Assembly (NCBI RefSeq): GCF_900090265.1 | Contig: NZ_LT607752.1 | Location: 1,612,001-1,676,000, forward strand | DNA length: 64,000 bases | Reading direction: 5' to 3' | Source of the DNA: Micromonospora rifamycinica | GTDB taxonomy: Bacteria > Actinomycetota > Actinomycetes > Mycobacteriales > Micromonosporaceae | Shown: positions 14,671 to 64,000 of the stretch, piece after piece | Numbering within the stretch: position 1 is the stretch's first letter | Layout of the letters: the number at the start of each line of letters is the position of its first letter | Notes under the pieces: generated by a model | The model's database searches: none | Seen by the model: the letters and a program-made list of their open reading frames with translations, nothing else | Told to the model about the DNA's origin: nothing | Program-made: the position numbers and the translations under genes

Positions 14671-14737
14671 CGGCGCTCCTTCCGGTTCGGGCGGTCGCGG
14701 CGGTTCCGCGCCGCCGGCTGCGCTGGCCGGGCCGGTC

Positions 14738-16132: not shown

Positions 16133-16136
16133 GACC

Positions 16137-17528
16137 TCAGCCCCCGATCGCCCGGAAGTAGTCGTACACGTGCAGGACGGCGAGCCCGATCGGCAGCAGC
16201 GCCACCGCCGCCGCGGTCAGCGTCAGGTCACCGACCCGCCCCCAGTACGGCGTCACCCGCCGCCCGGGGAGGCTGCGCCCGGCCAGCAGCAACGCCGGTA
16301 CGGCGACCGGCAGCACCGCCAACGCCAGCACCCGCGCCAGCGGCCCCGCACCGGCCAGGGCGTCCACGGCGACCGCGACGAGCCCCACCAGCGCCGGCAC
16401 CGCCTGGGTCAGCCGGTGCCAGGCGCTGGTCATCGGTCGGGCGTTGAGCAACCAGACCAGCGCGACCAGCATCACCAGGGTCACCTCCGCCCACCCCGCC
16501 CGGTGCGCCACCGGCAGCAGCGCCACGGCGGTGGCCGTCGCCAGGCCGGCGTACAGGGCGGTCATCAGCCGGTCGACGGCCCGCGCCCGGTCCATCAGCG
16601 GGCCGGCGGGTTCCGGGTCGATGTCCTCCTGGAGGTGCTCGGGTCGGGTCGGCAGCGGGGCGAGGCGCATCCCGGCCAGCCGGAACGCGAACAGGGGCAC
16701 GGTCAGCACCAGTGCGGTCGCGGCCAGCGCCACCACCGCGCCGGACTGCGGCCCGGTCAGCCCGCCGACCGTGGCGGCGGCCCCGCCGAGCACCCCCAGC
16801 AGCAGCGCGACGGAGCCGGCGACGAACAGCGGGGTGGCCGCGCCGAGCAGGCCGGCGGCGAGCACCGCCACCGCCGCCCCGGTGGCGGTCCCGCCGAGCA
16901 CCTGCGGCCCGGTCGTCCCCGCGCCGACCGCCCCGCCGTCGCCGGGCAGCACCAGCCCGGCCAGGCCGGCGTAGCCGGTCGCGGCGACGGCCAGCAGCAC
17001 GCCGAACCCCCGCTCGGCGGCGGCCCGGACCACGGCGGCCCCGCCGCCCAACGCCACCGCCGCCACCGCCAGCGCCGCCACCGCCCGCAGCGGCACCGGG
17101 CCGGGCAGCGCCAGGGCCACCAGCCCGACGGCGAACAGCAGCCCGGCCAGCCCCAGCACCACCGGGCGGACCAGCTCGGGACGCCACCGGCCGGGGCGGT
17201 CCCGCACCCCGGTCGCCATCCCGTCGACGAGGTCGTCGAAGTCGACCTCGGGCAACTGGTCGGCGCGCGGACGCAGGTACACCAGGTCGCCGTCGTGCAG
17301 GTCGAGCGCGGCGACGCTGCTCTCCTCGTCCAGCGGGGCCGAGCCGGCACGTTGCAGGACCCAACCGCCGTGGCTCAACCCCGTGTCGGCCAGCCCGTCG
17401 CCGAGGTGGTGCAGCAGCGCCGGCAACAGGTCGGCCACGACCACCCCGACCGGCACGGCGACCTCGATCTGCCGGCTCGGTCCGCGTACGACCAGCCGGC
17501 ACATCTGCTCGGTCTCGGTGCCTGTCAC
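16137..17528 (-). CDS. eccD: Type VII secretion integral membrane protein EccD
   Basis: The 463-residue product has an N-terminal ubiquitin-like domain (residues 8-90: CRLVVRGPSRQIEVAVP to DGDLVYLRPRADQLP) and about ten to eleven hydrophobic segments, as in EccD, the membrane channel-forming subunit of ESX. GTG 17528 is chosen because GAAGGGG lies just upstream; ATG 17504 (MCRLVV) is an alternative. The open frame extends to 17963 but would run into the divergent eccC. It is the first gene of the minus-strand operon and is followed after four bases by eccB. Confidence 0.92.
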   Translation of the reverse strand: MTGTETEQMCRLVVRGPSRQIEVAVPVGVVVADLLPALLHHLGDGLADTGLSHGGWVLQRAGSAPLDEESSVAALDLHDGDLVYLRPRADQLPEVDFDDLVDGMATGVRDRPGRWRPELVRPVVLGLAGLLFAVGLVALALPGPVPLRAVAALAVAAVALGGGAAVVRAAAERGFGVLLAVAATGYAGLAGLVLPGDGGAVGAGTTGPQVLGGTATGAAVAVLAAGLLGAATPLFVAGSVALLLGVLGGAAATVGGLTGPQSGAVVALAATALVLTVPLFAFRLAGMRLAPLPTRPEHLQEDIDPEPAGPLMDRARAVDRLMTALYAGLATATAVALLPVAHRAGWAEVTLVMLVALVWLLNARPMTSAWHRLTQAVPALVGLVAVAVDALAGAGPLARVLALAVLPVAVPALLLAGRSLPGRRVTPYWGRVGDLTLTAAAVALLPIGLAVLHVYDYFRAIGG

Positions 17529-17682
17529 GGCCCCTTCAACGGCAACCGCCCGAGAACGTTCAACGGCCCGGCGGAATTTTCTTCGCCCGCCGACGGACCC
17601 CGGCCGGAAAGCGGGATCGACCCGGATCGGCCCGTGCTCCGTTGTGGAGGGGGGCCGACGGCCCGGGTGGAGGGAGACGAGC
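17529..17682. promoter_or_regulatory. Divergent promoter region between eccD and eccC
   Basis: A 154-base spacer between divergent start codons must carry both promoters. It contains a 9-base direct repeat TTCAACGGC at 17535-17543 and 17559-17567 (24-base period) and a short AT-rich stretch GGAATTTTCTTC near 17572, the only low-GC part. I cannot assign -35 and -10 boxes with confidence. Confidence 0.4.
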
Positions 17683-48777: not shown

Positions 48778-48786
48778 TCCGGTGGG

Positions 48787-48831
48787 GCGGCGGCCCGGCC
48801 CGGTGGCGTTCCCACCGGGCCGGGCCGCCGC
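48787..48831 (+). terminator. Terminator of the nrdAB operon (20-bp stem)
   Basis: The 20-base arm 48787-48806 pairs perfectly with 48812-48831 around loop CGTTC, starting 9 bases after the nrdB stop. It is almost pure GC and has no U-tract. Confidence 0.85.
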
Positions 48832-48894
48832 GCGGTCCCGCGGTCGTGGGGCGCCCGTCGCCCGGGACCACGCCCGTGCGTCATTCGACCGACA

Positions 48895-49103
48895 TCGTCA
48901 GACCGGGGCCGAATTGTCCACGAAAAAGCTCCACAAAAGTTACGCGACCATAAAAATGACTTAAACGCATTAGACGTCGATCGATGTTGATGAAGCCTCG
49001 ACGCGGTGCTAGCATCTTGACTCAGATCTTGAAAGATCGTCGAGGTATCCATCATCCGACACTCACACCGTCATCGCCCATTATTCCGAGGCAGAGGCTC
49101 ATT
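48895..49103 (+). promoter_or_regulatory. AT-rich promoter region of the polyketide cluster
   Basis: The gene-free stretch 48778-49103 holds the nrd terminator and then an unusually AT-rich pocket (about 48915-49060), the likely promoter of the biosynthetic operon. It contains a direct repeat ATCTTGA at 49014-49020 and 49026-49032 (12-base period). The second copy overlaps a palindrome GATCTT-GA-AAGATC (49025-49038), and a TTGACT is also present. Heptamer direct repeats are what SARP regulators bind, and a SARP gene lies in the cluster; the link is inferred. Confidence 0.5.
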
Positions 49104-50306
49104 GTGCGTACGATGCTGCTATTCGACGGTCTCGGCGGAGCGAACGACGGGCTGTTACCGGCGCTACGCGCGCTCTATACAATTCCAGCGAACGCCACCT
49201 ACTTCCACGCGACATTCCGTGTGCTCGACGAGGTGGCCGCCCATCTCGCACCGGCCGACCGGGTCCGATTATGCCCGGACGGCACGACGTTACGGCAGTG
49301 GCTGACGTCGACCACCGCACCGCCGGGCGGAATACCCCGGGACTCGGTCACCGCCGGCCTGTGCATCCACGTCCACCAGGCCTGCCAGCTCCAGCCGGTC
49401 CGGCGACACCCGGACGACGCCGTCGCGGCGCTCGGCCACAGCATCGGCCTGCTGGCCGCCGTCCTGGCCGGCCTCGGCGTCCGCCGGACGGACGAGTACC
49501 TCGAGGTGGCGGCCGTCTGCCTGCGGTTGGCGGCGATCACCCTGGTGCGCGGCCAGCAGTACGCCGGGGGGCCGACGCCCGACCCCGGGGCGGTCGACCA
49601 ATACCGGACCCGGGTCCGCCGCAGCGCCCCACCGGGGCCGATGGCCGCCCTGACCGGCCTGCGCCGAGAGGAGCTCGACGAACTGCTGACGGGGGCCGGC
49701 GGCACGATCACGGTGAGCCTGGCGAACGCGGCGCGGGCACACGTGCTCAGCGGCCCGACCGTCGAACTCCTCGACTTCTACCTCCGCCACGAGGCGACGT
49801 TCGCGCGGACCGGCGCGACCTGGGCGTTCCTGAACAACACCATCCCGTTCCACAGCCCGCTGCTGCTGCCGGCGGTGCGCCGGATCGCCGGGGACCGCGA
49901 CTTCGTCGGTCAGCTGCCGGGCGGCGACCGGCTGCGCCTGCCGGTGTACGCCACCGACGCCCCCCGCGATCTGCGCGGCGCACCGGACCTGATGGACGAG
50001 TTCTGCCAGCAGGTGCTGTCGCGCCCGGTCGAATGGGAACAGGTGACCCGGCACGCCGTCACCGACTCCGCCATCGACCGAATAGTCGACCACGGCCCCG
50101 GAGCAGGCGCGCGACGTTTCACGAAGGAATGTCTTCGCGACCACCCGCGCCGGGTCGCATTCGAGTCGGCACAACAATTCTCCACACCACCGGTCTCAGG
50201 AGGCCAGCGTGCGATGTCTGCTCTTTCCGGGCCAGGGCGTACAACGCCGGGGAATGGGATCGGGGCTGTTCGCCCAGTTCCCGGAGACCACCGCGCTGGC
50301 GGATGA
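49104..50306 (+). CDS. SAT/FAS-type acyltransferase (starter-unit transacylase-like)
   Basis: GTG 49104 follows GCAGAGG at 6 bases; the frame begins further upstream at 48984 but without an SD. The 400-residue protein has the acyltransferase serine motif GHSIG (Ser113), catalytic His250 in IPFHSPLL and a C-terminal VDHGPGAGARRFTKE. The last motif is typical of fungal-type FAS/SAT acyltransferases (GPG near the end). It could load a starter acyl group onto the PKS carrier protein or hydrolyse stalled chains. Its 3' end overlaps the next gene by 98 bases. Confidence 0.75.
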   Translation: MRTMLLFDGLGGANDGLLPALRALYTIPANATYFHATFRVLDEVAAHLAPADRVRLCPDGTTLRQWLTSTTAPPGGIPRDSVTAGLCIHVHQACQLQPVRRHPDDAVAALGHSIGLLAAVLAGLGVRRTDEYLEVAAVCLRLAAITLVRGQQYAGGPTPDPGAVDQYRTRVRRSAPPGPMAALTGLRREELDELLTGAGGTITVSLANAARAHVLSGPTVELLDFYLRHEATFARTGATWAFLNNTIPFHSPLLLPAVRRIAGDRDFVGQLPGGDRLRLPVYATDAPRDLRGAPDLMDEFCQQVLSRPVEWEQVTRHAVTDSAIDRIVDHGPGAGARRFTKECLRDHPRRVAFESAQQFSTPPVSGGQRAMSALSGPGRTTPGNGIGAVRPVPGDHRAGG

Positions 50307-51045
50307 GATCCTCGGCTACTCGATCGAGGAACTGTGCACCCGGGATCCGGACCGCAGACTCCGAGACACCCGCTACGCCCAGCCCGCCGTATTCGTGGCC
50401 AATGCCCTGCTGGGCCGGCAACGGATCGCCGAGCAACCTGACGGCTACCGGTTCTACGCCGGGCACAGTCTCGGCGAGTACAACGCGCTCTGCGCCGCCG
50501 GCATGCTCGACTTCGAGACGGCGCTGCGCCTGGTGCGACGGCGCGGTGAGCTGATGGCCGACATCACCGGCGGCGGCATGTCCGCCGTCCAGGGGGTACC
50601 GGCGGCCTTCGTCCAGCGGGCGCTGCGCGAGACCGGACTGTCCGGGGTGCACATCGCGAACTTCAACGCCGACACCCAGACGACGATCGCCGGGGACCGG
50701 GTGGAGGTGGCCGTCGCCGCCAAGGCCATCGGCGCGCTGCCCGGTGCGCGGGTCGTCCCGATCAACGTGAGCGGCCCGTTCCACACGCCGTTGATGGCGT
50801 CGGTCGAGCCGGAGCTGCGGGCGGCGTTGGAGAGCTGCGTGTTCAGCGCCGGCACCGGCACCGTCGTGTCCAGCGTGACCGGTGCGGTCTTCCGCACCGA
50901 CCAGGGCGCCGAGCTGCTCACCCGCCAGGTGTCCACCCCGGTGGACTGGGTGCGTGCCGTCGCCACCCTGCGCGCCCTGGGCGTCACCCAGTTCGACGAG
51001 GTCAACGGAAGCACGCTGAGCGCGCTCGTGAACAGGATCCGGTGA
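50209..51045 (+). CDS. Discrete ACP S-malonyltransferase (trans-acting AT)
   Basis: GTG 50209 follows CAGGAGG. The 278-residue protein has FPGQGVQ, nucleophile Ser87 in GHSLGEYNAL, and His192 in GPFHTPLM. The phrase GHSLGEYNAL followed by DFETALRLVRRRGELM is typical of trans-AT PKS acyltransferases. The next gene encodes a PKS without AT domain, so this enzyme most likely supplies its malonyl extender. Its stop is 15 bases before the PKS start. Confidence 0.9.
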   Translation: MRCLLFPGQGVQRRGMGSGLFAQFPETTALADEILGYSIEELCTRDPDRRLRDTRYAQPAVFVANALLGRQRIAEQPDGYRFYAGHSLGEYNALCAAGMLDFETALRLVRRRGELMADITGGGMSAVQGVPAAFVQRALRETGLSGVHIANFNADTQTTIAGDRVEVAVAAKAIGALPGARVVPINVSGPFHTPLMASVEPELRAALESCVFSAGTGTVVSSVTGAVFRTDQGAELLTRQVSTPVDWVRAVATLRALGVTQFDEVNGSTLSALVNRIR

Positions 51046-51060
51046 AGGGATGGACGCACG

Positions 51061-54000
51061 ATGAGCATCGCGATCGTTGGCACCTCGGTGGAGCTGCCGG
51101 GGGTGGACAGCCTGGACGGGTTCTGGCGCGTCATCAGCACCGGCACCAGCCTCACCAGGCCGTTCCCCCAGCACCGCCGGGAGACCCTGAGCGAGTACAT
51201 CCACTACGTGCGGGCCACCACCGTCGAGCCGGTGGACGACACCAGCCTGGACTTCCACCACGGCTGCTACCTCGACGCCGTGGACACCTTCGACTACGCC
51301 GTCTTCGGGATGACACCCCGGCAGGCCATGCTGACCGACCCGCACCACCGGATGGCGCTGCGCGCGATGTACCTCGCGTTCGAGGACGCCGGCTACTCCG
51401 CGGACCGGCTCCGCGGCAGCCGCACCGGGGTCTTCGTCGGCTTCGCCACCAACCCCGGGTCGACCTACATGGACTACCTCGCCCGGATCGAACCGTCGTC
51501 CGGCCAGCAGGCGATCACCGGCAACATCCCCGCCATGCTGGCCAACCGGCTGTCCCACCTGCTCGACCTGCGCGGCCCGAGCCTGGTGGTGGACACCGCC
51601 TGCTCGGCCACCCTGGTCGCCCTGCACCAGGCGAAGAACGCCCTGCTGGCGGGGGACTGCGACATGGCGGTGGTCGGCGGCGCGCGGATCGTCTTCGCCC
51701 CGGTCAAGCACCCGCACACCAACATCGGCATCGAGTCGTCCGACGGGGTCACCCGCACCTTCGACGAGGCCGCCGACGGCACCGGTTTCGGCGAGGGCGC
51801 CGGCGCGGTGGTCCTCAAGCGGACCGAACAGGCCGTCGCCGACGGCGACCAGATCTACGCCGTCATCCGGGGCAGCGCGGTCAACCACGACGGCCACACC
51901 GACGGCATCACCAGCCCGAGCTCCCAGGCGCAGGCCGAGCTGCTGCTCACCGCCTGGCGCAACGCCGGGATCGACCCGCGCACGCTCGGCTACTTCGAGG
52001 CGCACGGCACGGCCACCAGGGTCGGCGACCCGATCGAACACGAGGGCATCAAGCAGGCCTTCGCCCGGCACACCTCGGACCGGAGCTTCTGCGCCGTGGG
52101 TACGGTCAAGGCGAACGTCGGCCACCTCTTCGAGGGCTCCGGCGTGATCGGCCTGTTGAAGGCGGTGGCCGTGCTACGCCACCGGATGCTGCCGCCGCAG
52201 GCCAACTTCGTGAACCCCAACCCCAAGCTCGACTTCACCTCCGGCCCGTTGTTCGTGCCGACCGCCCTGCAACCGTGGGAGTCCCCCGACGGGCCGCGCC
52301 GCTGCGGGGTGAGCGCGTTCGGCCTCGGCGGCACCAACGCCCACGTGGTGGTGGAGGAGTACGTCGCGCCGCCGGCCGAGCCCGCGCCGCCCGGCGAACA
52401 CCTGTTCACGCTGAGCGCGGCCACCCCGAGGTCGCTGACCGGCCTGCTGCGCAGCTACCTCCGGTTCATCGACGACGGCGGGCTCGACGGCGTGGACTTC
52501 GCCGACGTCTGCCACACCACGCGGGTGTCGCGGTCGGCGCACCGCCACCGCGTCGCACTGGTGGTCTCCGGTCCGGACGACCTCCGCCGAGGGCTGGAGG
52601 AGCTGCTCGCCGGTGGTGGGCAGCCCGCCCTCGACGGCCCGCTCGGCGAGGTGGCGCAGGACTACCTGCGGGGAGCGGCCGTCGACTGGCAGCGGCTGGC
52701 GGCGGGCCGGGCCTACCGCACCGTCCACCTCCCCCGCTACGTCTTCGACGACAGCACCGCCTGGCTGGATTTTCCGCAGAACTGGCGGGAGACCATGTCG
52801 TTGGAGCGGGCCACCGAGCAGCATCCGGTGATCCACGACGTGGAGCTGAGGCCGATGCCGGCGCCCGCGCGGGTCACCGAGGACGCACGGATCCTCGCCC
52901 TGGTGGATCCGGCCACCGACGCCGGGACGGTGCTGGCCCCGGTGCTCTCCGACAGCAGCCTGGTCGTCCGGCTCGGTGACCGGTTCTCCCCCGACGACGA
53001 GGTCGTCGCCGCCGACAGTCCGGCGTCGTACGACCGTCTCGCCCGGCTCGTCGACGAACACGACATCACCCACCTGGTCTACGCGCTGGCCTTCGAGCAG
53101 ACCGCGGCGGACGACATCGAGGAGATCGAGCGGCGGACGACGAAGAACCTGTACGGCCTCTTCCACCTGGCCAAGGCGCTGATGGCGGCGGGCACCAAGC
53201 TCGACCTGGTGGTGCTGACCCGCAACGCGGTGGCCGCACGCGACGGTGACGCGACGGCGGTCACCGAGAACGCCGCGCTCGTCGGCCTCGGCAAGGTGCT
53301 CGTCCGGGAGTACCCGTACATCCGGGTCAAGCACGTCGACGTCGACCCGGCCGTGCCGGCGGCTGCGCTGCGCGCGGAGCTGCTCGCCGACGAGTACGGC
53401 CTGTCGGTCCTGCGCGGCGACGAACGGTTGCGTGAGGTCTTCGTCGAGGTCACCGAGATCGAACCGACGGTCGGTGCGCAGGGCACCCGGCCCTACCTCA
53501 GGTCCGGGGGCACCTACCTGATCACCGGAGGCACCGGCGCGCTCGGGCTCGCGGTCGCCCGGGACTTCGTCGACGCCCAGCCCGACATCACCGTGGTGCT
53601 GCTCAGCCGGTCCGGACTGCCCCCGCGCGACCAGTGGGACGAGCTGTCCACGGCGGGGCCGGACGGCCCGGTGCAGGGCCGGCTGCGGGTCGTGCGGGAG
53701 CTGGAGTCGCTGGGCGCGTCGGTGCACGCGGTGGCGGTCGACGCGGGCGACAGCAAGGCCCTCGCCGAGGCGGTCGGCGGGCTCCGGCACCGGTACGGCC
53801 GGATCGACGGGATCGTGCACGCCGCCGGGCTGCCGGGCGGCAGCACCGTCATGTTCCGTCAGCTCGACGACTTCGACGCGGTGGTGCGGGCCAAACTGCA
53901 CGCGGCGTTCGTGCTCGACGCGGTCACCCGCGACAACCCGCCGGACTTCATCGTCCACTTCTCCTCGGTCGCCGCGGTGTTCCCCGCCCCCGGACAGGCC

Positions 54001-54657
54001 GACTACGCCGCCGCCAACTACTACCTCGACAACCTGGCCAGGGCGCAGGCGGGCCGGGACTGCCACGTGATCGCGCTGGACTGGGTCGCGTGGAAGGAGA
54101 TCGGCATGGCGGTGGACTTCGGCACCAACGGCGACACCATGTTCAAGGCCATCCCGACCGCCGTGGGCCTGGCCGTCCTCGACGCCGGCCTGCGGTCGCG
54201 CCGGTCACGGCTGTTCGGCGGGGAACTCAACTACGGCGGGGAACTCGTCCACCTGCTGCGCTCCTACGACGTGGGGCTGTCCACCGACATCGAGGCCACC
54301 GTGGAGCGGCACATGCACGCGCTGGAGGCCCGGTTGGCCAAGGCCACCGAGAAGATCCGGGCCACCGTGTCGGCGGTGACGGTCGAGCTGGAGGGCCGGC
54401 CGGACGGCGACTACTCCGACACCGAGCGGTCGGTCGGGCAGTGTCTGGCGCTCGCGTTCGGCTACGACCGGCTCGACGTGGAGGCGGACTTCTTCGACCT
54501 GGGCGGTGACTCCCTGATGGCGGCCACCGTGGCCAGCAACATCTCGGTCTGCCACGGCGTGCCGTACGACGTGGCCGATCTGCTCGCCGACCGCACCGCC
54601 GCCGAGATCGCCTACCACGTCGAGGAGCTCGGCGAGTTCGGCGCCACCAGCAGCTGA
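51061..54657 (+). CDS. AT-less polyketide synthase, KS-KR-ACP
   Basis: The 1198-residue protein is a single module. KS (1-430) has Cys181 (DTACSAT), His315 (EAHGTAT) and His355 (KANVGHL). After a short linker comes the KR with its structural half (about 640-1090), NADPH motif LITGGTGALG near 821, and Ser969, Tyr982 and Asn986 all present. The ACP (about 1110-1190) has FFDLGGDSLMA with Ser1151. There is no AT, DH, ER or thioesterase. The extender must come from the discrete AT encoded upstream. It would make a beta-hydroxyacyl product in one round, unless it works iteratively. Confidence 0.93.
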   Translation: MSIAIVGTSVELPGVDSLDGFWRVISTGTSLTRPFPQHRRETLSEYIHYVRATTVEPVDDTSLDFHHGCYLDAVDTFDYAVFGMTPRQAMLTDPHHRMALRAMYLAFEDAGYSADRLRGSRTGVFVGFATNPGSTYMDYLARIEPSSGQQAITGNIPAMLANRLSHLLDLRGPSLVVDTACSATLVALHQAKNALLAGDCDMAVVGGARIVFAPVKHPHTNIGIESSDGVTRTFDEAADGTGFGEGAGAVVLKRTEQAVADGDQIYAVIRGSAVNHDGHTDGITSPSSQAQAELLLTAWRNAGIDPRTLGYFEAHGTATRVGDPIEHEGIKQAFARHTSDRSFCAVGTVKANVGHLFEGSGVIGLLKAVAVLRHRMLPPQANFVNPNPKLDFTSGPLFVPTALQPWESPDGPRRCGVSAFGLGGTNAHVVVEEYVAPPAEPAPPGEHLFTLSAATPRSLTGLLRSYLRFIDDGGLDGVDFADVCHTTRVSRSAHRHRVALVVSGPDDLRRGLEELLAGGGQPALDGPLGEVAQDYLRGAAVDWQRLAAGRAYRTVHLPRYVFDDSTAWLDFPQNWRETMSLERATEQHPVIHDVELRPMPAPARVTEDARILALVDPATDAGTVLAPVLSDSSLVVRLGDRFSPDDEVVAADSPASYDRLARLVDEHDITHLVYALAFEQTAADDIEEIERRTTKNLYGLFHLAKALMAAGTKLDLVVLTRNAVAARDGDATAVTENAALVGLGKVLVREYPYIRVKHVDVDPAVPAAALRAELLADEYGLSVLRGDERLREVFVEVTEIEPTVGAQGTRPYLRSGGTYLITGGTGALGLAVARDFVDAQPDITVVLLSRSGLPPRDQWDELSTAGPDGPVQGRLRVVRELESLGASVHAVAVDAGDSKALAEAVGGLRHRYGRIDGIVHAAGLPGGSTVMFRQLDDFDAVVRAKLHAAFVLDAVTRDNPPDFIVHFSSVAAVFPAPGQADYAAANYYLDNLARAQAGRDCHVIALDWVAWKEIGMAVDFGTNGDTMFKAIPTAVGLAVLDAGLRSRRSRLFGGELNYGGELVHLLRSYDVGLSTDIEATVERHMHALEARLAKATEKIRATVSAVTVELEGRPDGDYSDTERSVGQCLALAFGYDRLDVEADFFDLGGDSLMAATVASNISVCHGVPYDVADLLADRTAAEIAYHVEELGEFGATSS

Positions 54658-54674
54658 CCACGATCGGGGACGTC

Positions 54675-56042
54675 ATGACCGACATGACCACTGGACCACC
54701 GGTTCGCCAGATCGTCGGCTTCGCCGTGCCGCTGACCGTCGCCAGCCTGTTCCAGCAGGTGTACCTGCTGGTCGACAGCATCGTCGTCGGGCGCTACGTC
54801 GGCATCGACGGGCTCGCCGCGGTCGGCGCGAGCGGACCACTGTTCTACCTGCTGAACGCGATGTTCATCGGGTTGGGGACCGCGTTCACCATCCGGCTGG
54901 CGCACCTGCGCGGCGCGCGGCAGGACCGGGAGCGACGCGACGTCGTGGTGGCCCTGGCCACGGTCACGGTCTGCTGGGCGCTGGGCTGCATGCTGCTGGT
55001 CACCGTGCTGGCCGGGCCGGTCCTGGCCCTGATGGGCATCACGGGTGACCTGGCGGAGCAGTGCGCCCACTTCATCGGGGTGCTGTCCGTCGGTTTCCCC
55101 GGCATCTTCGGATCCGCCGCGGTCAGCGCCTACCTGCGCGGGCTGGGCAACTCGCGGGCGGCGATGTGGGTGCAGGCGTCCGGGAACCTGATCAACATCG
55201 CGCTGGCGTTGTTCTTCGTCGGCGGTCTCGGGCTCGGCATCGGCGGCGCCGCGATGGCGACCGCGACGGCGACCACGGTGGCGATGGTGGTGGGTGTCGT
55301 CGCGGCGGGACGGCTCTATCCGCTGCCACGGGGCCGGCCGAGCCGTCGGGCGGTGACCGGTGAGCTGTCCGACGCCACCCGGCTCGGCTTTCCGCTGGCC
55401 ACCCAGCACATCATCCTCGCCGCCGGGATCATGGTGCTGGTCTGGATCATCGAGGCGTACGGCGAGGTGGTGATGGCGGCGTTCACCATCGTCTCGCGGA
55501 TCGAGGCGTTCACCGCCCTGCCCTTCCTGTCGCTGTCTGGCGCGATGGTGACGTTCGCGGCGCAGAACCTCGGCGCCGGCCACACCGAGCGGGCGCGGTA
55601 CGGCCTGCTGCGGGCGCTCGGGCTGACCGTCGGCCTGACGGTGCTGGTCTCCATCGTGGTCGTCGTGGCGCACCGCCCCATCGCCGCGCTGTTCACCGAC
55701 GACGAGGCGACCCGCCGGGTCACCGGGCAGTACCTCCTGATCATCTTTCCGTTCCTGGCGCTCTACACCGTCATGGTCGTGCTGCACGGCTACCTCAACG
55801 GCGCCCGGCGGACGACCGCGCCGCTGATCTGCACCATCGTCGCCTTCGTCATGGTGCAGCTCCCCTTCGCCTACCTGCTCAACGGGCCGCTGGGCATCCA
55901 GGCCGTGATGTGGGCCGTGGTCGCGAGCTGGACCACCGGGCTGACGTACACGGTCTTCTGCCTGCGTCGCGTCCTGGCGCCGCGGCGTACCCCGCTCGCC
56001 GACACCCCGTCCCGCTCCGTGGAGGTGCCCAGCTCACCATGA
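54675..56042 (+). CDS. MATE-family efflux transporter
   Basis: A 455-residue protein with twelve predicted membrane helices in two halves, MATE-type (FAVPLTVASLFQQVYLLVDSIVVGRYVG at the N-terminus; VSAYLRGLGNSR, FTIVSRIEAFTALPFLSLSGAMVTFAAQNLGAG). Likely the exporter of the cluster product or a self-resistance pump. It lies between the PKS and the condensation-domain gene, whose ATG overlaps its stop. Confidence 0.92.
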   Translation: MTDMTTGPPVRQIVGFAVPLTVASLFQQVYLLVDSIVVGRYVGIDGLAAVGASGPLFYLLNAMFIGLGTAFTIRLAHLRGARQDRERRDVVVALATVTVCWALGCMLLVTVLAGPVLALMGITGDLAEQCAHFIGVLSVGFPGIFGSAAVSAYLRGLGNSRAAMWVQASGNLINIALALFFVGGLGLGIGGAAMATATATTVAMVVGVVAAGRLYPLPRGRPSRRAVTGELSDATRLGFPLATQHIILAAGIMVLVWIIEAYGEVVMAAFTIVSRIEAFTALPFLSLSGAMVTFAAQNLGAGHTERARYGLLRALGLTVGLTVLVSIVVVVAHRPIAALFTDDEATRRVTGQYLLIIFPFLALYTVMVVLHGYLNGARRTTAPLICTIVAFVMVQLPFAYLLNGPLGIQAVMWAVVASWTTGLTYTVFCLRRVLAPRRTPLADTPSRSVEVPSSP

Positions 56043-57442
56043 TCACCATGCGTACGACCGAGGTGGAGTTCCACGGTGGTCGCGTCCGCACCGCCCCGCT
56101 GACCTGGGGACAGGAGGTCATCTGGGACCTCATGCGCGACTGGGAGAACGCCCGGACCTTCGCCGTGCTCACCCGCTGGATGCCGGTCCCCCTGGTGCTG
56201 GGCCTCGACGCCGTGCGGGAGGGCATCGGCGACCTGATGCGGCGGCACGAGGCGCTCCGGACGCGGTACCACCGCACGCCCACCGGCGACGGCACCCAGG
56301 AGGTGCTCGCCGCCGGGTCACTGCCGGTCGAACTCGTCGACCGGTCGATCGAGGACCCCACGGACTGGACGGACATCGTCACCGAGTGCCTGGCCCGCAA
56401 CGCCGCGGGCGGCTTCGACCACGAGACCGACCTGCCGGTCCGCTTCTCGGTGATCCTCCAGGACGGCATCCCGATCCTGCTCACCTTCGCCGTCTCCCAC
56501 CTGTCCGCGGACTTCATCAGCGCCGACCTGCTCGTCGCCGACCTGACCGCGCTGCTGCGCGCCCGGGTGGACGGCAGGCCGGTACCCCCGGCCCGGCCGG
56601 CGCTCCAGCCGGCCGACCTGGCGGCCCGCGAGGAGCGGCCGGAGGGGCAGCTGCTGGACATCGAGGCGACGAGGTTCATCCAGCGGCAGCTCAGCCGCAC
56701 CCACCCGGACATGCTGCCGCCGCGGGCGACGCCCGTCACGCCACGGTTCCACCGGGGGCAACTGGAGTCCGACGCCGTCGCGATGGCGGTGGGACCGGCG
56801 GCCCGCCGGTACCGGACGACCCCCTCCACGATCCTGCTGTCCGTCTTCACGGCGCTGATGCGCAGTGTCCTGCCGGGGCCGGTCTGTCCGGTCGACATCA
56901 TGCTGAGCAACCGCATGGAGCCCGAGCTGGCCACCATGGTGTGCAGTCTCAGCCAGGGCATCATGACGGTGGTCGAGCTGGGCGGCGACTCGTTCGCCGA
57001 GCTGGTCGCGCAGTGCACGGCCGTGCTGACCGAGGCGCGCAGCCACGGTCGGCACCGCCAACGCACCACCCTGGGCCTGATCAGCAGGGCGGCCGCCCGA
57101 CGCGGTTGCCAGTTCAACGACATCTGGTCGCAGCTTCCCGGACGCCCCCGCCCACCCGCCACCCTCGCGGAGCTGTCGGCGGTCACCGCCAGCAGCAGCT
57201 TCTCCTGGGTCGAGCGGGTGGCGGAGAAGAACAAGGATCTCTTCATGGGCATCCGGGGCACCGCGGAGCGCATCCACCTGTCCCTCTTCGTCGACACGGC
57301 CCTGCTGCCCCCCGGCGACATCCGGGCCTTCCTCGACACCTTCGAACGGACCGTCGTGACACTCGCCTTCGAGGACGTCCCGCTGGACCAGGTCGCGCGC
57401 TGGTTCACCGAGAGCTGTGCCCGGTACGCCCGGGACCGGTGA
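56039..57442 (+). CDS. Stand-alone condensation-domain acyltransferase
   Basis: ATG 56039 overlaps the MATE stop (ATGA). The 467-residue protein is a single NRPS-type condensation domain: LTWGQEVIWDLM at the start, RRHEALRTRYH, the HHxxxDG region reading FAVSHLSADFIS (His154 and Asp158 kept; first His is Ser, Gly is Phe), and DVPLDQVARWF near the end. It probably transfers the PKS-bound acyl group onto an alcohol or amine, like PapA5-type or trans-acting C domains. No NRPS adenylation domain is in the window, so a free acceptor is likely. It converges on the SARP gene. Confidence 0.85.
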   Translation: MITMRTTEVEFHGGRVRTAPLTWGQEVIWDLMRDWENARTFAVLTRWMPVPLVLGLDAVREGIGDLMRRHEALRTRYHRTPTGDGTQEVLAAGSLPVELVDRSIEDPTDWTDIVTECLARNAAGGFDHETDLPVRFSVILQDGIPILLTFAVSHLSADFISADLLVADLTALLRARVDGRPVPPARPALQPADLAAREERPEGQLLDIEATRFIQRQLSRTHPDMLPPRATPVTPRFHRGQLESDAVAMAVGPAARRYRTTPSTILLSVFTALMRSVLPGPVCPVDIMLSNRMEPELATMVCSLSQGIMTVVELGGDSFAELVAQCTAVLTEARSHGRHRQRTTLGLISRAAARRGCQFNDIWSQLPGRPRPPATLAELSAVTASSSFSWVERVAEKNKDLFMGIRGTAERIHLSLFVDTALLPPGDIRAFLDTFERTVVTLAFEDVPLDQVARWFTESCARYARDR

Positions 57443-57452
57443 CGGACGGCGG

Positions 57453-58295
57453 CTAACGGGCGCGGGCACGCTGGAGGACGAGGTGGTCGAGCAGCTGGGT
57501 CAACCCGTCCTCGCGCGGCGCCACCTCCAGCGCCCGGTCGTCGGTGAGGATCGCCTGCTGGAGCAGGTGCAGCCGCTTGGACGGCTCCAACCCCAGCTCC
57601 TGCACCATCGACGCCCGCAGCCGGTGGAACACCGCCAGCGCCTCGCGTCGCTGGCCGCTGCGGTGCAGCGCCACCATCAGCTGCGCGCACAGGTTCTCGT
57701 TCAGCCGGTGCTCGGCGATCAGCAGGGTGAGGTCGGCCAGTACGTCCTGGTGGTGGCCGAGCCGTAGGCGCGCCTCGATGCACTGCTCGACGGTGGCGAG
57801 CCGGGTCTCCTCCAGCGCCTTGAGCCGGGGCCCGGCCACCACGCCGGCACGCACGTCGGCCAGCGCCGGCCCGCGCCAGAGGGCACAGGCGCGCACCAGC
57901 AGGGCCGCCGCGTCGACGTGGTCACCGGCCGCCAGCGCACGCCGGCCGGCCGAGGCCAACTGCTCGAACCGGCGCAGGTCGAACTCGTCCGGGCCGACCC
58001 GTAGCAGGTAGCCGCCGGGGACGGTGACCAGCACCCGCCGGGCCACCTCGGCGACCGGCACGTCGAGCAGGGCGGCGAAGCACTTGCGGAGCTGGAGCAC
58101 GTACGTCTGGAGGGTGGTCGGCGCGCTGACCGGTGGGGACGCCCCCCACAACTCCCTGGTCAACGCGGTGGCCTGCACGGTCTGGTCAGCGTGGAGCAAC
58201 AGCAGGCCCAGCACGCTACGGGGCTTCGGGGCGGTCGGCGTGGCGGTGCGACCGGAGCGGGCGAGCACGAGCGGTCCCAGGATCTGGATCTCCAT
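57453..58295 (-). CDS. SARP-family transcriptional activator
   Basis: The 280-residue AfsR/SARP protein without ATPase domain has the OmpR-like winged helix at residues 1-95 (MEIQILGPLVLARSG, PKPRSVLGLLLLHAD, TLQTYVLQLRK, GYLLRVGPDEFDL) and the bacterial transcriptional activator domain at about 100-245. GGGGGAGAGG precedes ATG 58295. Small SARPs of this type activate antibiotic clusters by binding heptamer direct repeats; the repeats near 49014-49032 are a candidate target. Confidence 0.92.
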   Translation of the reverse strand: MEIQILGPLVLARSGRTATPTAPKPRSVLGLLLLHADQTVQATALTRELWGASPPVSAPTTLQTYVLQLRKCFAALLDVPVAEVARRVLVTVPGGYLLRVGPDEFDLRRFEQLASAGRRALAAGDHVDAAALLVRACALWRGPALADVRAGVVAGPRLKALEETRLATVEQCIEARLRLGHHQDVLADLTLLIAEHRLNENLCAQLMVALHRSGQRREALAVFHRLRASMVQELGLEPSKRLHLLQQAILTDDRALEVAPREDGLTQLLDHLVLQRARAR

Positions 58296-58408
58296 GGCCT
58301 CTCCCCCGGAAAGCGATCTGCATTCTGCGCGACGTGCTGCGGGGACACCCGAAAAAATGCGACAGCCTTACCCATCAGCATAGATGGACGTCAGGTTCGA
58401 CTGCGATG

Positions 58409-59785
58409 CTAGCGGGTTTTCGGGCCGCCGTCGTCGATTGTTCGAGCCGTCTTCGAGGACGACCCGGCGCGGCGCAGCGCGGCGACCCCGGTGCGCCACA
58501 GGATGTCCGGACGACGCAGCCGGTCGGGACCGGCCGTCAGGTTGACGACCTCCAGGAAGGCCCGGTGCACCACCTCGTCGGTCACCGTCGCGTTCTGCAC
58601 CGCCTCGGCCAGGCCACGGCGCAGCCGCCAGCCGAAGGGTCGGGCGGTGGTCACGTGCGGGAGGTAGCAGTCCTGCGCGGCGGAGAAGTCCCAGGCGTCG
58701 TCCACCACCGCGCGCACCCGCCGGAAGTACCCGTGCGCCGGCCCGTCCAGCGCGCCGGGCTCGGCCAGCCACTCGGCCAACGCGAGGGCCTGCATCGCCG
58801 CCACCGAGATGCCCTGCCCGTAGGTCGGGTTGAACGAGGCGACCGCGTCGCCGATCGCGACCAAGCCGGCCGGGAACCGGTCCAGCCGATCGAACTCGCG
58901 GCGGACGCTGTCCGGGAAACGGTGCACGCGCACCTCGTCGGCCGGCTCGCACGCCGCCGGCAGCGCCTGGAGCGCAGGGGCCGGATCCGCGCGGCAGCGG
59001 GCCAGGAACTCGCCCAGGTCACGGCCCGGCCGCCGGTCGCCGTAGCCGCTGACCAGCGTCAGCCAACGGTTCCCCTCGACCGGGGTCATCGAGCTGGGTC
59101 CGGTCAGCGCCCTGCTCGGCGTGTAGACCGAGTACACCGCCACGTGCCCGGCCAGCCGCTGGCCGGGCTCCCGATGGAACAGGCAGGTGGCGTAGCCGAG
59201 GTCCAGGGCCATCCGGCGCTTGGCCGGCGCCGGGTAACCGATCCGGCCCAACCAGTCGGCCAGCCGGCTGGACCGCCCGGTCGCGTCCACCACCAGGGTC
59301 GCGCCGTGGCGCTGGGCACCGGTGGCACCCGGCGGGCGGACCAGCGCCCCGTCCACCCGGCCGGCGGTCGCGGTGAGCCCGACGGCGGTGCCCCCGACCA
59401 GGGCGACGTTCGGCAGCGCGAGGACCCGCCGACGGATGTGCCACTCCAGGAACGGGCGCGACACGCTGACCACGCTGCCGCCGCGCACCGGGACCTTGGC
59501 CCGGCCGTTGAGGAACCACTGCGCCCCGCCGGGACCGCTGGTGACCAGCTGGCCGCCCTCGCGCACCAGTTGCCGGACGATGCCGGGCAGCAGCCGGTCG
59601 ATGACGGTCCGACCCCGGCCGAGCAGGGTGTGCGCCTGGCTGCCGTGCGGCGTGCCGCGGCGGAGCACCGGCGCGTCCTCCAGCAGGTCGGGTTCGACGA
59701 TCCACACCTGCTCGGCGTGGTCGGCCAGGACCCGCGCGGCGACCAGGCCGGCGATGCTGCCGCCGAGGACGAGGGCGGTCTCCAT
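58409..59785 (-). CDS. FAD-dependent monooxygenase, MonCI/Lsd18-like epoxidase group
   Basis: The 458-residue flavoprotein has ALVLGGSIAGLVAARVLADH at the N-terminus, then VIDRLLPGI after RRGTPHGSQAHTL, a sequence order familiar from MonCI/Lsd18-type polyether epoxidases. VVDATGRSSRLADWL and GDAVASFNPTYGQGISVAAM complete the FAD binding. It may epoxidise or hydroxylate the polyketide; the PKS itself makes no double bond (no DH), so the substrate is unclear. Its ATG overlaps the PPTase stop by one base. Confidence 0.8.
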   Translation of the reverse strand: METALVLGGSIAGLVAARVLADHAEQVWIVEPDLLEDAPVLRRGTPHGSQAHTLLGRGRTVIDRLLPGIVRQLVREGGQLVTSGPGGAQWFLNGRAKVPVRGGSVVSVSRPFLEWHIRRRVLALPNVALVGGTAVGLTATAGRVDGALVRPPGATGAQRHGATLVVDATGRSSRLADWLGRIGYPAPAKRRMALDLGYATCLFHREPGQRLAGHVAVYSVYTPSRALTGPSSMTPVEGNRWLTLVSGYGDRRPGRDLGEFLARCRADPAPALQALPAACEPADEVRVHRFPDSVRREFDRLDRFPAGLVAIGDAVASFNPTYGQGISVAAMQALALAEWLAEPGALDGPAHGYFRRVRAVVDDAWDFSAAQDCYLPHVTTARPFGWRLRRGLAEAVQNATVTDEVVHRAFLEVVNLTAGPDRLRRPDILWRTGVAALRRAGSSSKTARTIDDGGPKTR

Positions 59786-60363
59786 CAGCGGCGCACCCGG
59801 CGGTGGGCGATCGCCAGCACGTGGCCGGGCAGCTCCCGGTGGGTGACCAGGACGTCGGGGTCGTCGACGGTGGAGCGCCAGGCCGGCGGCTGCGGCGGGG
59901 CGGTGCGTAACCGCAGCAGCCGGCCCCCGCGCAGCCCGGTGCCGTAGAGCTTGGCCACCGCCTCCTTACCGGTCCACAGGGACAGGAAGCCGACGTCGAG
60001 ACGTTCGACCGGCTGCCCCCGGAGCCAGTCGGTGTCCTCGGCGGCGAACCACCGTCGGCTCAGCGCGAGCGCGGGCAGCTGTCGCACCGCCTCCACGTCG
60101 ACGCCGACCGGTCCGAGCCGGGACACCGCCACCGCGACCAGTCCACCGGTGTGGCTGACGCTGGCGTGCCACCCCGTGGCGACGCCGCGCAGCAGCGGCG
60201 CACCCCGGGCCGCCCGGTCGACCACGACCGCGTCCACCGGGGCACCGGCCATCGCCGCGGCCGTCCCGGCCAGCAGGGCACGGGCCGTCACCCGTCCGTC
60301 GCCCGCGCGGCGGTCCAGCCGCACCACCAGATCCGGTGGCACCGCGGTCAGCACCACACCCAC
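59785..60363 (-). CDS. 4'-Phosphopantetheinyl transferase (Sfp-type)
   Basis: The 192-residue protein has the family motifs HASVSHTGGLVAVAVS, GVDVE (metal-binding Asp and Glu) and SLWTGKEAVAKLYGTGL. It converts apo-ACP to holo-ACP, and the ACP of the neighbouring PKS is the obvious client. It starts at GTG 60363 (VGVVLTAVPP) and is coupled to the flavin monooxygenase by a one-base overlap (TGATG). Confidence 0.92.
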   Translation of the reverse strand: MGVVLTAVPPDLVVRLDRRAGDGRVTARALLAGTAAAMAGAPVDAVVVDRAARGAPLLRGVATGWHASVSHTGGLVAVAVSRLGPVGVDVEAVRQLPALALSRRWFAAEDTDWLRGQPVERLDVGFLSLWTGKEAVAKLYGTGLRGGRLLRLRTAPPQPPAWRSTVDDPDVLVTHRELPGHVLAIAHRRVRR

Positions 60364-60508
60364 CCGGCCCCCACAGGTCCGTTCCGAGAATTGTCAGCAC
60401 ACCCCGGCCGATGCGAGGATCCGTCGGACCGGTGTCGACGATACCGAGGTGGCACACCTTTCCGACCCGCGCTTCTCTGGACATTCACTAGAGCCTCAGT
60501 GGAGAACG
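60364..60508. promoter_or_regulatory. Divergent promoter region between PPTase and methyltransferase genes
   Basis: A 145-base spacer between divergent starts. It includes GGAG 5 bases before ATG 60509 and a moderately AT-rich centre (CATTCACTAGAG near 60482). No clear palindrome or paired boxes were found. Confidence 0.35.
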
Positions 60509-61609
60509 ATGACGCCGTCGCAGCACGAGGTCCCGGAACCCCTTTCCGACCGGTCCCGGAATCCGGTTCCGCCACGGCACGGGCCACGGCCGGGGCGGGA
60601 CGGCGACTATTTCCGCAAGCGGCTGCTCAACGTCCTCTGTGCCACCTGGACGGCGCAGGCCTGCTCGGTGTTCGCCCTGCTCGGCCTGCCCGACCGGATC
60701 GCCGGGGGCACCACGGGCGGGGCCGAGCTGGCCGCCGCCGCCGGACTGGACCCGGTCGCGCTCCGCCGGCTGCTCGCCGCGCTCGCCGACGCCGGTGTGC
60801 TGCGCCAGACCGGCCCCGACCACTTCGAGCTGACCGGCATGGGCGGGTATCTGCGCTCCGACGTGCCCGGCTCGGTCCGGGACACCGCCGTGCTCTACGG
60901 CCAGGAGGTCTTCACCTCGTTCGCCGGGCTGCTGGAGACCGTCCGCACCGGCCGGCCCGCCTTCACCGAGCGCTTCGGCGAGCCCTTCTACCAGTACCTC
61001 GACGGTCATCCGGCGGTGGCCGCGACCTTCCACGGCGCGATGTCCGCCGTCCCCGAACCACCACCGCCCCCGCCCGGCCTGTTCGACGGCGTCCGTACGG
61101 TGGTGGACGTCGGCGGCGGTGACGGGGGCCTGCTCGTCGGTGTCCTCGCCGACTGCCCGCACCGGCGCGGGGTGCTCGTGGAGCAGGCGGAGGCCGCCGC
61201 CCGGGGGCGCGAGCGGCTCGCCGCCGCCGGTGTGCTGGACCGGGTGGACGTCGTCGTCGGCAGCTTCTTCGACCACGTGCCCCCGGGGGGCGACCTGTAC
61301 GTGCTGCGCCGGGTGCTGCACAACTGGGACGACGGCAACGCCGCCCGGGTGCTGGCCCGGGTCCGCGCGGCGATGCCGGCCGACGCCCGGCTGCTGGTGC
61401 TGGAGGAGCTGCTGCCCGCGCGGCCCGAGCAGTCCGGTGCCGGCGCGGGCGCCTGGGCGGCGCCCCGCAACCGGATCGTGGATCTGCTGATGCTGGTCCT
61501 CATGGAGGGCCGGGACCGCACCGCCGAGGAGTACGGGCGGCTGCTCGCGGACGCCGACTTCACGGTCACCGGCGTGACCGGGGGTGCGATCGAGGCGGTC
61601 CCCGCCTGA
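60509..61609 (+). CDS. SAM-dependent O-methyltransferase
   Basis: ATG 60509 with GGAG just upstream; the frame extends back to 59951 only as a shadow of the PPTase gene. The 366-residue protein has an N-terminal dimerisation winged helix (AQACSVFALLGLPDRIAGG, LRRLLAALADAGVL), then the class I SAM fold (VVDVGGGDGGLLVGVL) and LRRVLHNWDDGNAARVL, the signature of COMT/AzinB-type O-methyltransferases with His-Asn-Trp-Asp active-site residues. It probably methylates a hydroxyl of the cluster product. Confidence 0.92.
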   Translation: MTPSQHEVPEPLSDRSRNPVPPRHGPRPGRDGDYFRKRLLNVLCATWTAQACSVFALLGLPDRIAGGTTGGAELAAAAGLDPVALRRLLAALADAGVLRQTGPDHFELTGMGGYLRSDVPGSVRDTAVLYGQEVFTSFAGLLETVRTGRPAFTERFGEPFYQYLDGHPAVAATFHGAMSAVPEPPPPPPGLFDGVRTVVDVGGGDGGLLVGVLADCPHRRGVLVEQAEAAARGRERLAAAGVLDRVDVVVGSFFDHVPPGGDLYVLRRVLHNWDDGNAARVLARVRAAMPADARLLVLEELLPARPEQSGAGAGAWAAPRNRIVDLLMLVLMEGRDRTAEEYGRLLADADFTVTGVTGGAIEAVPA

Positions 61610-61618
61610 GCAGGCCGG

Positions 61619-62887
61619 CTACCCGCCGCACGCCGCAAGGTAGCTGCCGACCGCGTCGGCGGCGACGAGCGTGCCGTGCGGCTCGGTCCGCATCCGCTCG
61701 CCGAGTTCGGCCGCGCGCCGCCGGAGCGGCTCCGCGGTCAGCCGGGTCATGCCCGCCCGCAGCACCTGCTCGGACAGCTCGGTGAACCGCACGTGCACAC
61801 CGGCACCGAGCCGCTCCAGCTGGCGGCCCCAGAACGGCTGGTCGGCGAAGGACGAGCAGACCATCGTCGGGATGCCGGCGCGCACCCCGGCGGCGGTGAT
61901 GGTGGCGCTGCCGTGGTGCACCACCATGGCGCAGCGCGGCAGCACCAGGTCGTAGTCCACGTAGGGCAGCACGCGCAGCTCCGGCGTGGCGGCCGGGTCG
62001 ACGCCGGCCAGGCCCCAGCCGGTGACGACCAGCCCCCGCACGCCCAGGGCACGGCAGACCCGTCCGATGCCCGCCAGCATCCCGGCCGGATCCGGCATGT
62101 GGGTGCTGCCGAACGTGACCAGTGCCGGCGGCTCGCCCGCGTCCAGCCAGCGCACCAGGTCGGGGTCCAGGGTCGACATGCCGACGCGGTGCAGGTCGGC
62201 CGGCGTCAGCCGCAGGTCGCCGACGATCGGCCGGTAGGCGTCCCAGGTCACCCCGGGCACCAGGGTGGGGCTGTAGCCCTGGAGTTCCAACGGCCGGCGC
62301 AGCGTGGCCGGGCGCGGCGGCATCGGTGCGAGCCCGAGCCGGCGGCGGAACCGGAACACCTGGTCGCGCCGGTACCGCCAGGCCCGTCGGGCGTAGTGCA
62401 CGTAGGTCGCCCGGTTCGCGGCGGCGTCCGCCAGCGGGTCGGGGGTCACCAGCGGATGCGGCACCACGTCGTTCGGCCGGGCTGGGGTGAGGTCGTACGC
62501 GACGAGCGGGACGTCGCGCGCCTCGGCCAGCGCGGTGGCCCACTGCTCGCTGACCACGGCGCACACGATCGCCGCACAGCCCTCGCTGAGCGCGACCGCC
62601 TCCTCGCCGAACCGGTCGCCGTGCTCCTGGTACGACTCGTGCGAGCGGCGGAGGAACAGGTCGAGGTCGGTCGTGGTGACCCACTCCCGGCCCTGCTCGG
62701 ACTGCATCATCCGCTGCTGGTCCCAGCCGACCGGCACCACGTCGAGCCCGAGCCGCCGGGGCAGGTCCACCAGGTTGGGCGACGCGCCCATGCGGATCCG
62801 GTGGCCACGGCGGGCCAGCTCGGCGGCGAGCGCGGCCAACGGGTAGACGTCACCGCGACTGCCGAGCGCCAGGACGGCGATGTGCAT
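61619..62887 (-). CDS. UDP/TDP-sugar glycosyltransferase (MGT/GT1-type)
   Basis: The 422-residue GT-B protein has an N-terminal LALGSRGDVYPLAALAAELA, typical of GT1 enzymes acting on sterols and polyketides. The C-terminal half has LVTFGSTHMP, VLPYVDYDLVLPRC and the nucleotide-sugar site VHHGSATITAAGVRAG followed by ADQPFWGRQLERLGAG. No deoxysugar genes are in the window, so the donor is probably a common NDP-hexose. It converges on the methyltransferase gene with a 9-base gap. Confidence 0.92.
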   Translation of the reverse strand: MHIAVLALGSRGDVYPLAALAAELARRGHRIRMGASPNLVDLPRRLGLDVVPVGWDQQRMMQSEQGREWVTTTDLDLFLRRSHESYQEHGDRFGEEAVALSEGCAAIVCAVVSEQWATALAEARDVPLVAYDLTPARPNDVVPHPLVTPDPLADAAANRATYVHYARRAWRYRRDQVFRFRRRLGLAPMPPRPATLRRPLELQGYSPTLVPGVTWDAYRPIVGDLRLTPADLHRVGMSTLDPDLVRWLDAGEPPALVTFGSTHMPDPAGMLAGIGRVCRALGVRGLVVTGWGLAGVDPAATPELRVLPYVDYDLVLPRCAMVVHHGSATITAAGVRAGIPTMVCSSFADQPFWGRQLERLGAGVHVRFTELSEQVLRAGMTRLTAEPLRRRAAELGERMRTEPHGTLVAADAVGSYLAACGG

Positions 62888-62914
62888 CCTCGTTCCCCTC
62901 CGGTCGCGGCGTCG

Positions 62915-63766
62915 TCATGCGGACCCGTCGGTCAGGTCGGTGGAGAACGCGACCTCCCGCTGGGCCTCAAGATCGGCCAGGCGGGCCGTCAGTCCACGGC
63001 GGATCGACCCGTACGCGTCGCTGCCGAGGACGACGCGCAGCGGGGCGGTCGGGCGGAGGGCGACGTCGACGACGGCGCGGGCCATCTTCGCCAGGTCACC
63101 CCGGCAGGGCAGGCGGCCGTCCTCGGCCCGGCGGCGCAGGATCGCGGCCGGGGTGTCGGCGTATGCGGGCAGCGCGGCGGTCAGCTCCTTGCCCCGGCCG
63201 AAGAAGCCGGTGTGCACCGTGCCCGGTTCGACGATGGTCACCCCGATCCCGAAGGTCTTCACCTCGGCGGCCAGCGACTCGAAGAAGCCCTCCACACCCC
63301 ACTTGCTGGCGCAGTAGACCGCCGTGCCCGCAGAACCGCGCTGCCCGGCCATGCTGGAGATCTGGACGATCCGGCCGTGGCCCTGCGCCCGCAGGTACGG
63401 CAGCACCGCCCGGGCCAGGAGGATGGGTCCGGTCAGGTTCGTCCGGAGCTGCCGCTCGATCTGGTCGGGACTGGCCTCCTCGGCCGCGCCGACCAGCGCG
63501 TACCCGGCGTTGCTGAGCACCACGTCGATGCGGCCGAGCGCGTGGACGGCCTCACCGACGACGCGCCGGATCCGTTCCGGGTCGGTGACGTCGAGTCGCG
63601 CCGTCCACAGGGTGCCCGACACGGCGGGCCGCAGGTCGGACAGCGCCTGCGGATCCCGGGCGGTCGCCGCCACCGTCTCGCCCCGGGCGAGCAGCTCGGT
63701 CACCAGCGCCCGGCCGAGTCCCGCCGAGCTTCCGGTGACCAGCCAGGTGCGGGTGGGCACGGTCAT
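62915..63766 (-). CDS. Short-chain dehydrogenase/reductase
   Basis: The 283-residue SDR has the NAD(P) motif LVTGSSAGLGRALV, VLSNAGYAL, catalytic Ser in VQISSMAGQ and YCASKWG (Tyr and Lys). ATG 63766 is chosen on homology; it has no clear Shine-Dalgarno, and the frame is open to 63856. It is separated from the glycosyltransferase gene by 27 bases in the same orientation, so the two are likely co-transcribed. It might reduce a keto group of the product. Confidence 0.88.
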   Translation of the reverse strand: MTVPTRTWLVTGSSAGLGRALVTELLARGETVAATARDPQALSDLRPAVSGTLWTARLDVTDPERIRRVVGEAVHALGRIDVVLSNAGYALVGAAEEASPDQIERQLRTNLTGPILLARAVLPYLRAQGHGRIVQISSMAGQRGSAGTAVYCASKWGVEGFFESLAAEVKTFGIGVTIVEPGTVHTGFFGRGKELTAALPAYADTPAAILRRRAEDGRLPCRGDLAKMARAVVDVALRPTAPLRVVLGSDAYGSIRRGLTARLADLEAQREVAFSTDLTDGSA

Positions 63767-64000
63767 GCCCGGGTCCGCGCCGGGACGACGCCGGGCCGGG
63801 CGGTCCGACCGGGGTTGGTCACGGCCGGCGGAAAGACGCCCGAAGGGGACCGGCAAACGCTTGTGACATTCAACCGCGTCTCTCCGCTCGATCGGCCGGC
63901 GTCTCCGGAGGAACCTTAGTGGAGCCCTCGCGGGAGGCGGTACCCACGGCCTCGACGGCGGGCTGAGAAATGCTTGAATCTGACCGTCGCCCCGGCTGCA
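63767..64000. other. Upstream region of the SDR gene and window edge
   Basis: No gene is supported in these 234 bases. On the minus strand TTGAATG near 63870 could be part of the SDR promoter. On the plus strand GGAGGAACCTTA followed by GTG 63920 opens only 15 codons before a stop, so I do not call it; a gene probably begins beyond the right edge. Confidence 0.4.

Follow-up and report, generated by a model that had tools for sequence, protein, structure and literature searches.

Trans-acyltransferase (trans-AT) polyketide synthases (PKSs), SAT domains and chain-releasing condensation (C) domains are each already known separately. A complex hybrid trans-AT cluster from an Actinoplanes is described, in the excerpt of PMC4807235, in terms other than those that fit the locus reported here, and a TransAT-PKS region is listed for Kribbella sp. 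CA-293567 in the excerpt of PMC9962454. Proteins P0163, P0196 and P0198 of that Kribbella strain are relatives of the proteins described below, and it may be that the paper already lists the same gene set, labeled by machine. Full-text searches of an open-access library listed no paper that we recognized as dealing with this conserved one-module cassette. Here we describe a cassette in a 64,000-nucleotide window of the Micromonospora rifamycinica genome (positions 1,612,001 to 1,676,000 of NZ_LT607752.1), which is assembled as a single 7.01-Mb contig. Five genes on the forward strand, together about 8.3 kb (window positions 49104 to 57442), encode a SAT-like acyltransferase (AT1), a second discrete acyltransferase (AT2), a PKS with ketosynthase (KS), ketoreductase (KR) and acyl carrier protein (ACP) domains, a MATE-family transporter, and a C-domain protein. 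We lean toward reading them as one self-contained pathway, a monomodular trans-AT PKS with predicted starter loader, extender loader, off-loader and exporter. This reading starts from what was observed of the genes' order and conservation, their domains, active-site residues and predicted folds; from these we infer the catalytic steps.

Conservation of the five-gene cassette

The genes are tightly packed, with junctions that are, in order, a 98-nt overlap between AT1 and AT2, a 15-nt gap, a 17-nt gap, and a 4-nt overlap in which the likely ATG start of the C gene at 56039 sits within the MATE stop (ATGA). The GTG start codon of AT1 at 49104 is backed by the N termini of its relatives. We compared 23 loci, consisting of the window's own locus, 20 others found via AT1 and two found via AT2; L087 was excluded before this count as a duplicate of L022, and two weak AT1 matches (G002 and G030), probably fragments of PKSs, were set aside. 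At least six loci came from a scan of genome contigs. The order AT1-AT2-PKS-MATE-C on one strand is found in 19 of the 23 loci, and in every locus the MATE gene comes after the PKS gene. The original prediction had taken the two acyltransferases and the module to be the entire unit. These are real genes, and close homologues of AT1 and of the PKS occur in several actinomycete genera, but the conserved unit also contains the exporter and the C-domain enzyme. An end of the unit at 54657 is rejected because the MATE and C genes are conserved together with the genes upstream.

The other four loci are arranged differently. L079 keeps the first four genes, with a C protein 26% identical to that of the window encoded on the opposite strand. 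L078 and L080 also keep the first four genes and carry upstream a gene that weakly resembles BtrH, and tblastn with the window's C protein detected no C gene in either. L093 has a gene of that same upstream family, AT2, PKS and MATE. Its neighbors (7294-19998) include genes of glyoxalase type and PhyH type, an FMN dehydrogenase gene and an aminotransferase gene, which may belong to a larger pathway making the acceptor.

Among same-genus genomes, 9 of 160 carry AT1 (12 candidates scored in each), and among family genomes 10 of 200 do (10 candidates scored in each); both counts include the M. rifamycinica genome. Named carriers among the matches listed include Umezawaea, Saccharothrix, Actinokineospora and Micromonospora humi. 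When the full PKS was searched across the class, the search (2 candidates scored per genome) returned only the M. rifamycinica genome itself out of 394, while AT2-like matches at an E value of 1e-40 or better occur in 35 of 394 (own genome included; 6 candidates scored per genome). The expectation that such a system would be unusual in actinomycetes therefore does not hold for AT2-like enzymes or domains, which the class does not lack to any great extent. Close AT2 relatives (E ≤ 1e-75) are present in 2 of 295 genomes of a Streptomyces-like genus, and plasmid records yielded no PKS or AT2 relative above 60% identity. A full-length relative of the PKS with 36% identity, the KS-KR-ACP protein P0106 of Treponema bryantii, indicates that the one-module protein spans phyla.

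Two acyltransferases and an AT-less module

The predicted fold of AT1 follows the AT domain of the fungal fatty acid synthase (FAS) beta chain along almost its full length. Fold comparison places the fungal FAS acetyltransferase nearest, with the PksD structure absent among the best 50 matches, and the top solved-structure match is likewise a fungal FAS beta chain (E = 1.1e-13). The match to the Pfam SAT model (PF16073) is 17.8 bits (E = 0.0027), short of the cut-off of 22.8, and PF16073 appears in the precomputed annotation of 14 of 51 listed AT1 relatives. The fungal FAS/SAT likeness originally proposed is thus strong by fold and weak by sequence. The malonyl-binding Arg is absent from AT1 in both alignments, with Ser, Thr, Ala, Val or Gly at the corresponding column 146, and Arg149, a residue shared with the fungal acetyltransferase, is present in 38 of 38 aligned AT1 proteins; on these grounds we reject an ordinary malonyl AT. 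A GHS motif is found in 36 of the 38. In two AT1 relatives, P0169 and P0170 (the latter from Kitasatospora), Leu replaces the His preceding the catalytic Ser.

AT2 is FabD-like. Its top Protein Data Bank (PDB) matches are PksC (209.6 bits) and DisD (201.9 bits), compared with 131 bits for 1mla and 84 bits for 1nm2, both presumably FAS-type malonyltransferases, the second from an actinomycete. AT2 has a GHSLG motif, the His, and an Arg (Arg112) in the column of the BaeC and BaeE Arg, from which malonyl activity is predicted.

The PKS is an extension module with no integrated AT. At an E value of 0.001 or better, Pfam detects no AT, dehydratase (DH) or thioesterase (TE) domain in it, and no enoylreductase (ER) domain besides short-chain-dehydrogenase models that overlap the KR, in agreement with the module lacking DH, ER and TE that had been predicted. 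An AT-less single module beside two discrete ATs is also borne out by sequence and fold, AT1 being without the malonyl Arg and AT2 with it. Active-site residues were counted in 102 aligned rows (P0002 to P0106, with P0058, P0096 and P0097 left out); strict text patterns had passed 27 of 94 and missed variants, and the aligned count was used instead. The KS Cys is conserved in 100 of 102 (one gap, one Val), both KS His residues, the KR Tyr and the ACP Ser in all 102, and the KR Ser and KR Asn in 101 each. In KR domains, an LDD motif marks the B type and a Trp the A type. The window's KR has LPGG at the LDD position and a Phe near the Trp position, which does not point to one hydroxyl stereochemistry. 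The best-scoring PDB match of the PKS is 7zma (637.6 bits in two stretches), which we take to be a trans-AT bimodule.

Two KS trees were built, both with group labels assigned by us. The first, a quick tree, used 85 hand-chosen KSs of about 160 extracted and placed the window's KS in a 98-supported set of 53 with KSs of L043 and L042 and cassette relatives, whereas eight own-genome KSs and the KSs of bacillaene and thiomarinol lay outside it (we take L046 to be bacillaene, L045 thiomarinol and L043 epifadin). The second, more careful tree had 67 rows, a smaller hand choice plus new rows, and omitted two KS rows that were long-branched in the quick tree as well as L047, L005 and L007. In it, the window's KS lies in a 96/95 clade of 37 that includes 9 of 23 trans-AT reference KSs (from L042, L043, L045 and L046) and relatives from Treponema, Rugamonas and Paenibacillus, apart from a 100/98 clade of 15 of the 16 own-genome KSs, labeled cis. 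The KS thus groups with trans-AT rather than cis-AT KSs, a placement that is not fully diagnostic. Elsewhere in the genome, L095 (4560501-4563800) has a KS with an AT start beside it, yet this KS is grouped with one from bacillaene and one from thiomarinol. Of 18 short own-genome KS loci, 13 contain an AT2-like stretch, among them L095. L018 (1474001-1494000) has large PKS-like frames of 2656 and 1662 aa, and one KS there is very long-branched in both trees.

Table 1. Features of the cassette and its upstream region (window positions)
Feature	Position	Strand	Basis or remark
Intergenic stretch, presumed promoter	48778..49103	+	Between ribonucleotide reductase small-subunit gene (end 48777) and AT1
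AT1, stand-alone SAT/fungal-FAS-acetyltransferase-like acyltransferase, predicted starter loader	49104..50306	+	
AT2, discrete trans-AT malonyltransferase-type enzyme	50209..51045	+	Acyl_transf_1; PDB relatives PksC, DisD; GHSLG, Arg112
AT-less PKS module KS-KR-ACP, 1198 aa	51061..54657	+	Pfam KS, KR, PP-binding
KS domain (residues 1-435)	51061..52365	+	DTACS Cys181, His315, His355; among trans-AT KSs
KR domain (residues 817-1013)	53509..54099	+	Pfam KR E 2e-42; TGGTGALG, Ser969, Tyr982, Asn986
ACP domain (residues 1127-1186)	54439..54618	+	PP-binding; GGDSL Ser1151
MATE-family efflux transporter	54675..56042	+	TIGR00797 201.1 bits, cut-off 147.4
Stand-alone condensation-domain protein, predicted off-loading acyltransferase	56039..57442	+	Likely start ATG 56039

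Ribonucleotide reductase genes lie 5' of the cassette. A scan for promoters and terminators gave no matches; in particular, no sigma-70-type consensus was found in the stretch between them and AT1.

The proposed pathway and its alternatives

In the pathway we propose, AT1 would charge the sole ACP of the module with a small acyl group that is not carboxylated (acetyl or similar), and this group would move on to the KS. AT2 would load malonyl, and a single condensation by the KS followed by reduction by the KR would yield a beta-hydroxyacyl-ACP. The C protein has the HxxxD active-site motif and a C-domain fold, and would transfer the beta-hydroxyacyl group to a free small amine or, less likely, an alcohol; a free small acceptor is expected because the cassette has neither a second carrier nor an adenylation domain. 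The MATE transporter would export the resulting amide.

In three deeper relatives (L078, L080 and L093, exactly the loci where this family is present), the gene of weak BtrH likeness directly upstream of AT1 or AT2 would stand in for C. Its Cys55, His171 and Asp188 are invariant in all three proteins and would fit a cysteine acyltransferase. The three loci do not fall together in the KS tree, which hints that the release enzyme may have been exchanged repeatedly.

Several observations weigh against the pathway as drawn. AT1, below the SAT cut-off, could hydrolyze rather than transfer. The KS phylogeny, proposed as a check in the original prediction, placed the window's KS among trans-AT KSs and away from nearly all own-genome KSs, but 14 of the 23 reference KSs lie outside its clade in another branch (83/84) and L095 lies inside its larger clade, so the position of the KS does not prove the case by itself. 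At the malonyl site, an L042 reference AT has Leu, and Arg there is therefore not a universal mark. Neither AT1 nor C was detected in L093, which suggests that a starter loader is not always needed. As for the release enzymes, the BtrH model PF14399 scores 17.0 bits against L080 (cut-off 29.7) and does not match L078 or L093, none of the three proteins has an NCBIfam match, and a profile comparison with an annotated BtrH-like protein gave a probability of 1.4%. C may also be too diverged in L078, L080 and L093 for tblastn with the window's protein, and our choice of amine over alcohol is a guess.

AT1 might instead be a housekeeping hydrolase that clears short acyl groups off the ACP, the starter coming from elsewhere. 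Trans-AT clusters often encode an AT-like hydrolase without the malonyl Arg (excerpt of PMC11775670), AT1 shares this lack, and L093 manages without AT1. According to the same excerpt, Gln occupies the malonyl-Arg site in most acyl hydrolases, other residues there being rarer, and a G(A/S/V)SL motif is frequent. BaeD carries both marks in our comparison, whereas both are missing from AT1: Gln occurs at column 146 in 0 of 38 aligned relatives, and GHS predominates at the nucleophile. The fold of AT1 is closest to the fungal FAS acetyltransferase, and its profile matches BaeD in the C-terminal half only (probability 36.5%, pairwise E = 0.00037). We consider this explanation unlikely, although some true hydrolases described in PMC11775670 have non-Gln residues, less often, so AT1 could still hydrolyze. 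Another alternative is that the module works iteratively and builds a longer poly-hydroxylated chain before release. Trans-AT KSs act once as a rule, and the window's KS is placed with them; the module also lacks DH and ER, and a dedicated stand-alone C enzyme would suit the transfer of one unit. With only a single KS and a single ACP to be reused, and with one-module type I PKSs generally iterative according to the excerpt of PMC10308959, iteration has some appeal, but we regard it as quite improbable.

The cassette also adjoins other biosynthetic genes. On the opposite strand, window positions 57453 to 63856 encode a SARP-type regulator, a FAD enzyme, an ACPS-type phosphopantetheinyl transferase, an EryCIII-like glycosyltransferase and a short-chain dehydrogenase/reductase (SDR). 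Beyond the window (genome 1676333-1683415) come genes for discrete ACPs and a MetK-like protein, together with a pair of type II KSs (1681440-1683409). This neighborhood is probably a separate aromatic polyketide cluster. That the cassette is a supply branch of it, decorating its product, strikes us as very unlikely: although the neighboring genes begin directly after the cassette and the type II KS pair is close by, the genes called up to 63856 run on the other strand and no flanking family occurs in more than 6 of the 23 loci. The window's own flank is represented in one of the 14 most widespread flanking families, an SDR-type family that two other loci also have, and among the first eight relatives compared, only two distant matches (36 to 37% identity) to the window's genes were found beyond the cassette.

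Implications and comparison with known systems

If the self-contained pathway is real, it would be a very small complete polyketide-amide pathway with each step from loading to export, and a compact system for asking how a trans-AT module distinguishes starter from extender on one ACP. It would also offer a way to mine genomes for a conserved product. AT1 would represent a domain of fungal FAS as a separate bacterial protein, and off-loading would prove to be a swappable part, given that a BtrH-like enzyme seems to take the place of C in the deeper relatives. A broader interpretation, which we put forward tentatively and with some doubt, is that the fungal FAS acetyltransferase has a free-standing branch in actinomycetes, acting in trans as a dedicated starter loader within a transferable five-gene device (with a pump and an exchangeable release enzyme) that makes and exports a beta-hydroxyacyl amide, possibly a signal.

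Among known systems, the acyl hydrolases PksD, PedC and BaeD share with AT1 an AT-like fold and the missing malonyl-binding Arg, but their Gln and G(A/S/V)SL marks are not in AT1. The BtrH-type acyltransferases of butirosin biosynthesis have no counterpart in the window's cassette; the weakly similar gene directly upstream of AT1 or AT2 in the three deeper relatives is below threshold. SgcC5 and the enacyloxin release enzyme, which we take to be stand-alone or chain-releasing C domains, resemble the window's C protein: it is free-standing, has the C-domain fold, and lies in a cassette without an adenylation domain or second carrier. The window's protein differs in serving a one-module PKS. PDB titles and the excerpt of PMC9113145 bear on these role assignments. 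Modular trans-AT PKSs such as those for bacillaene, thiomarinol and epifadin likewise use AT-less modules and a discrete malonyl-type AT, and the window's KS shares a broad clade with some of theirs. The cassette differs from them in having one module, its own fungal-FAS-type starter AT, its own C-type enzyme and a MATE pump, all within five genes without ER, beta-branching cassette or TE. In fungi, the acetyltransferase domain of the FAS beta chain and SAT domains such as that of CazM are parts of megasynthases, whereas AT1 is a stand-alone bacterial protein beside a trans-AT module.
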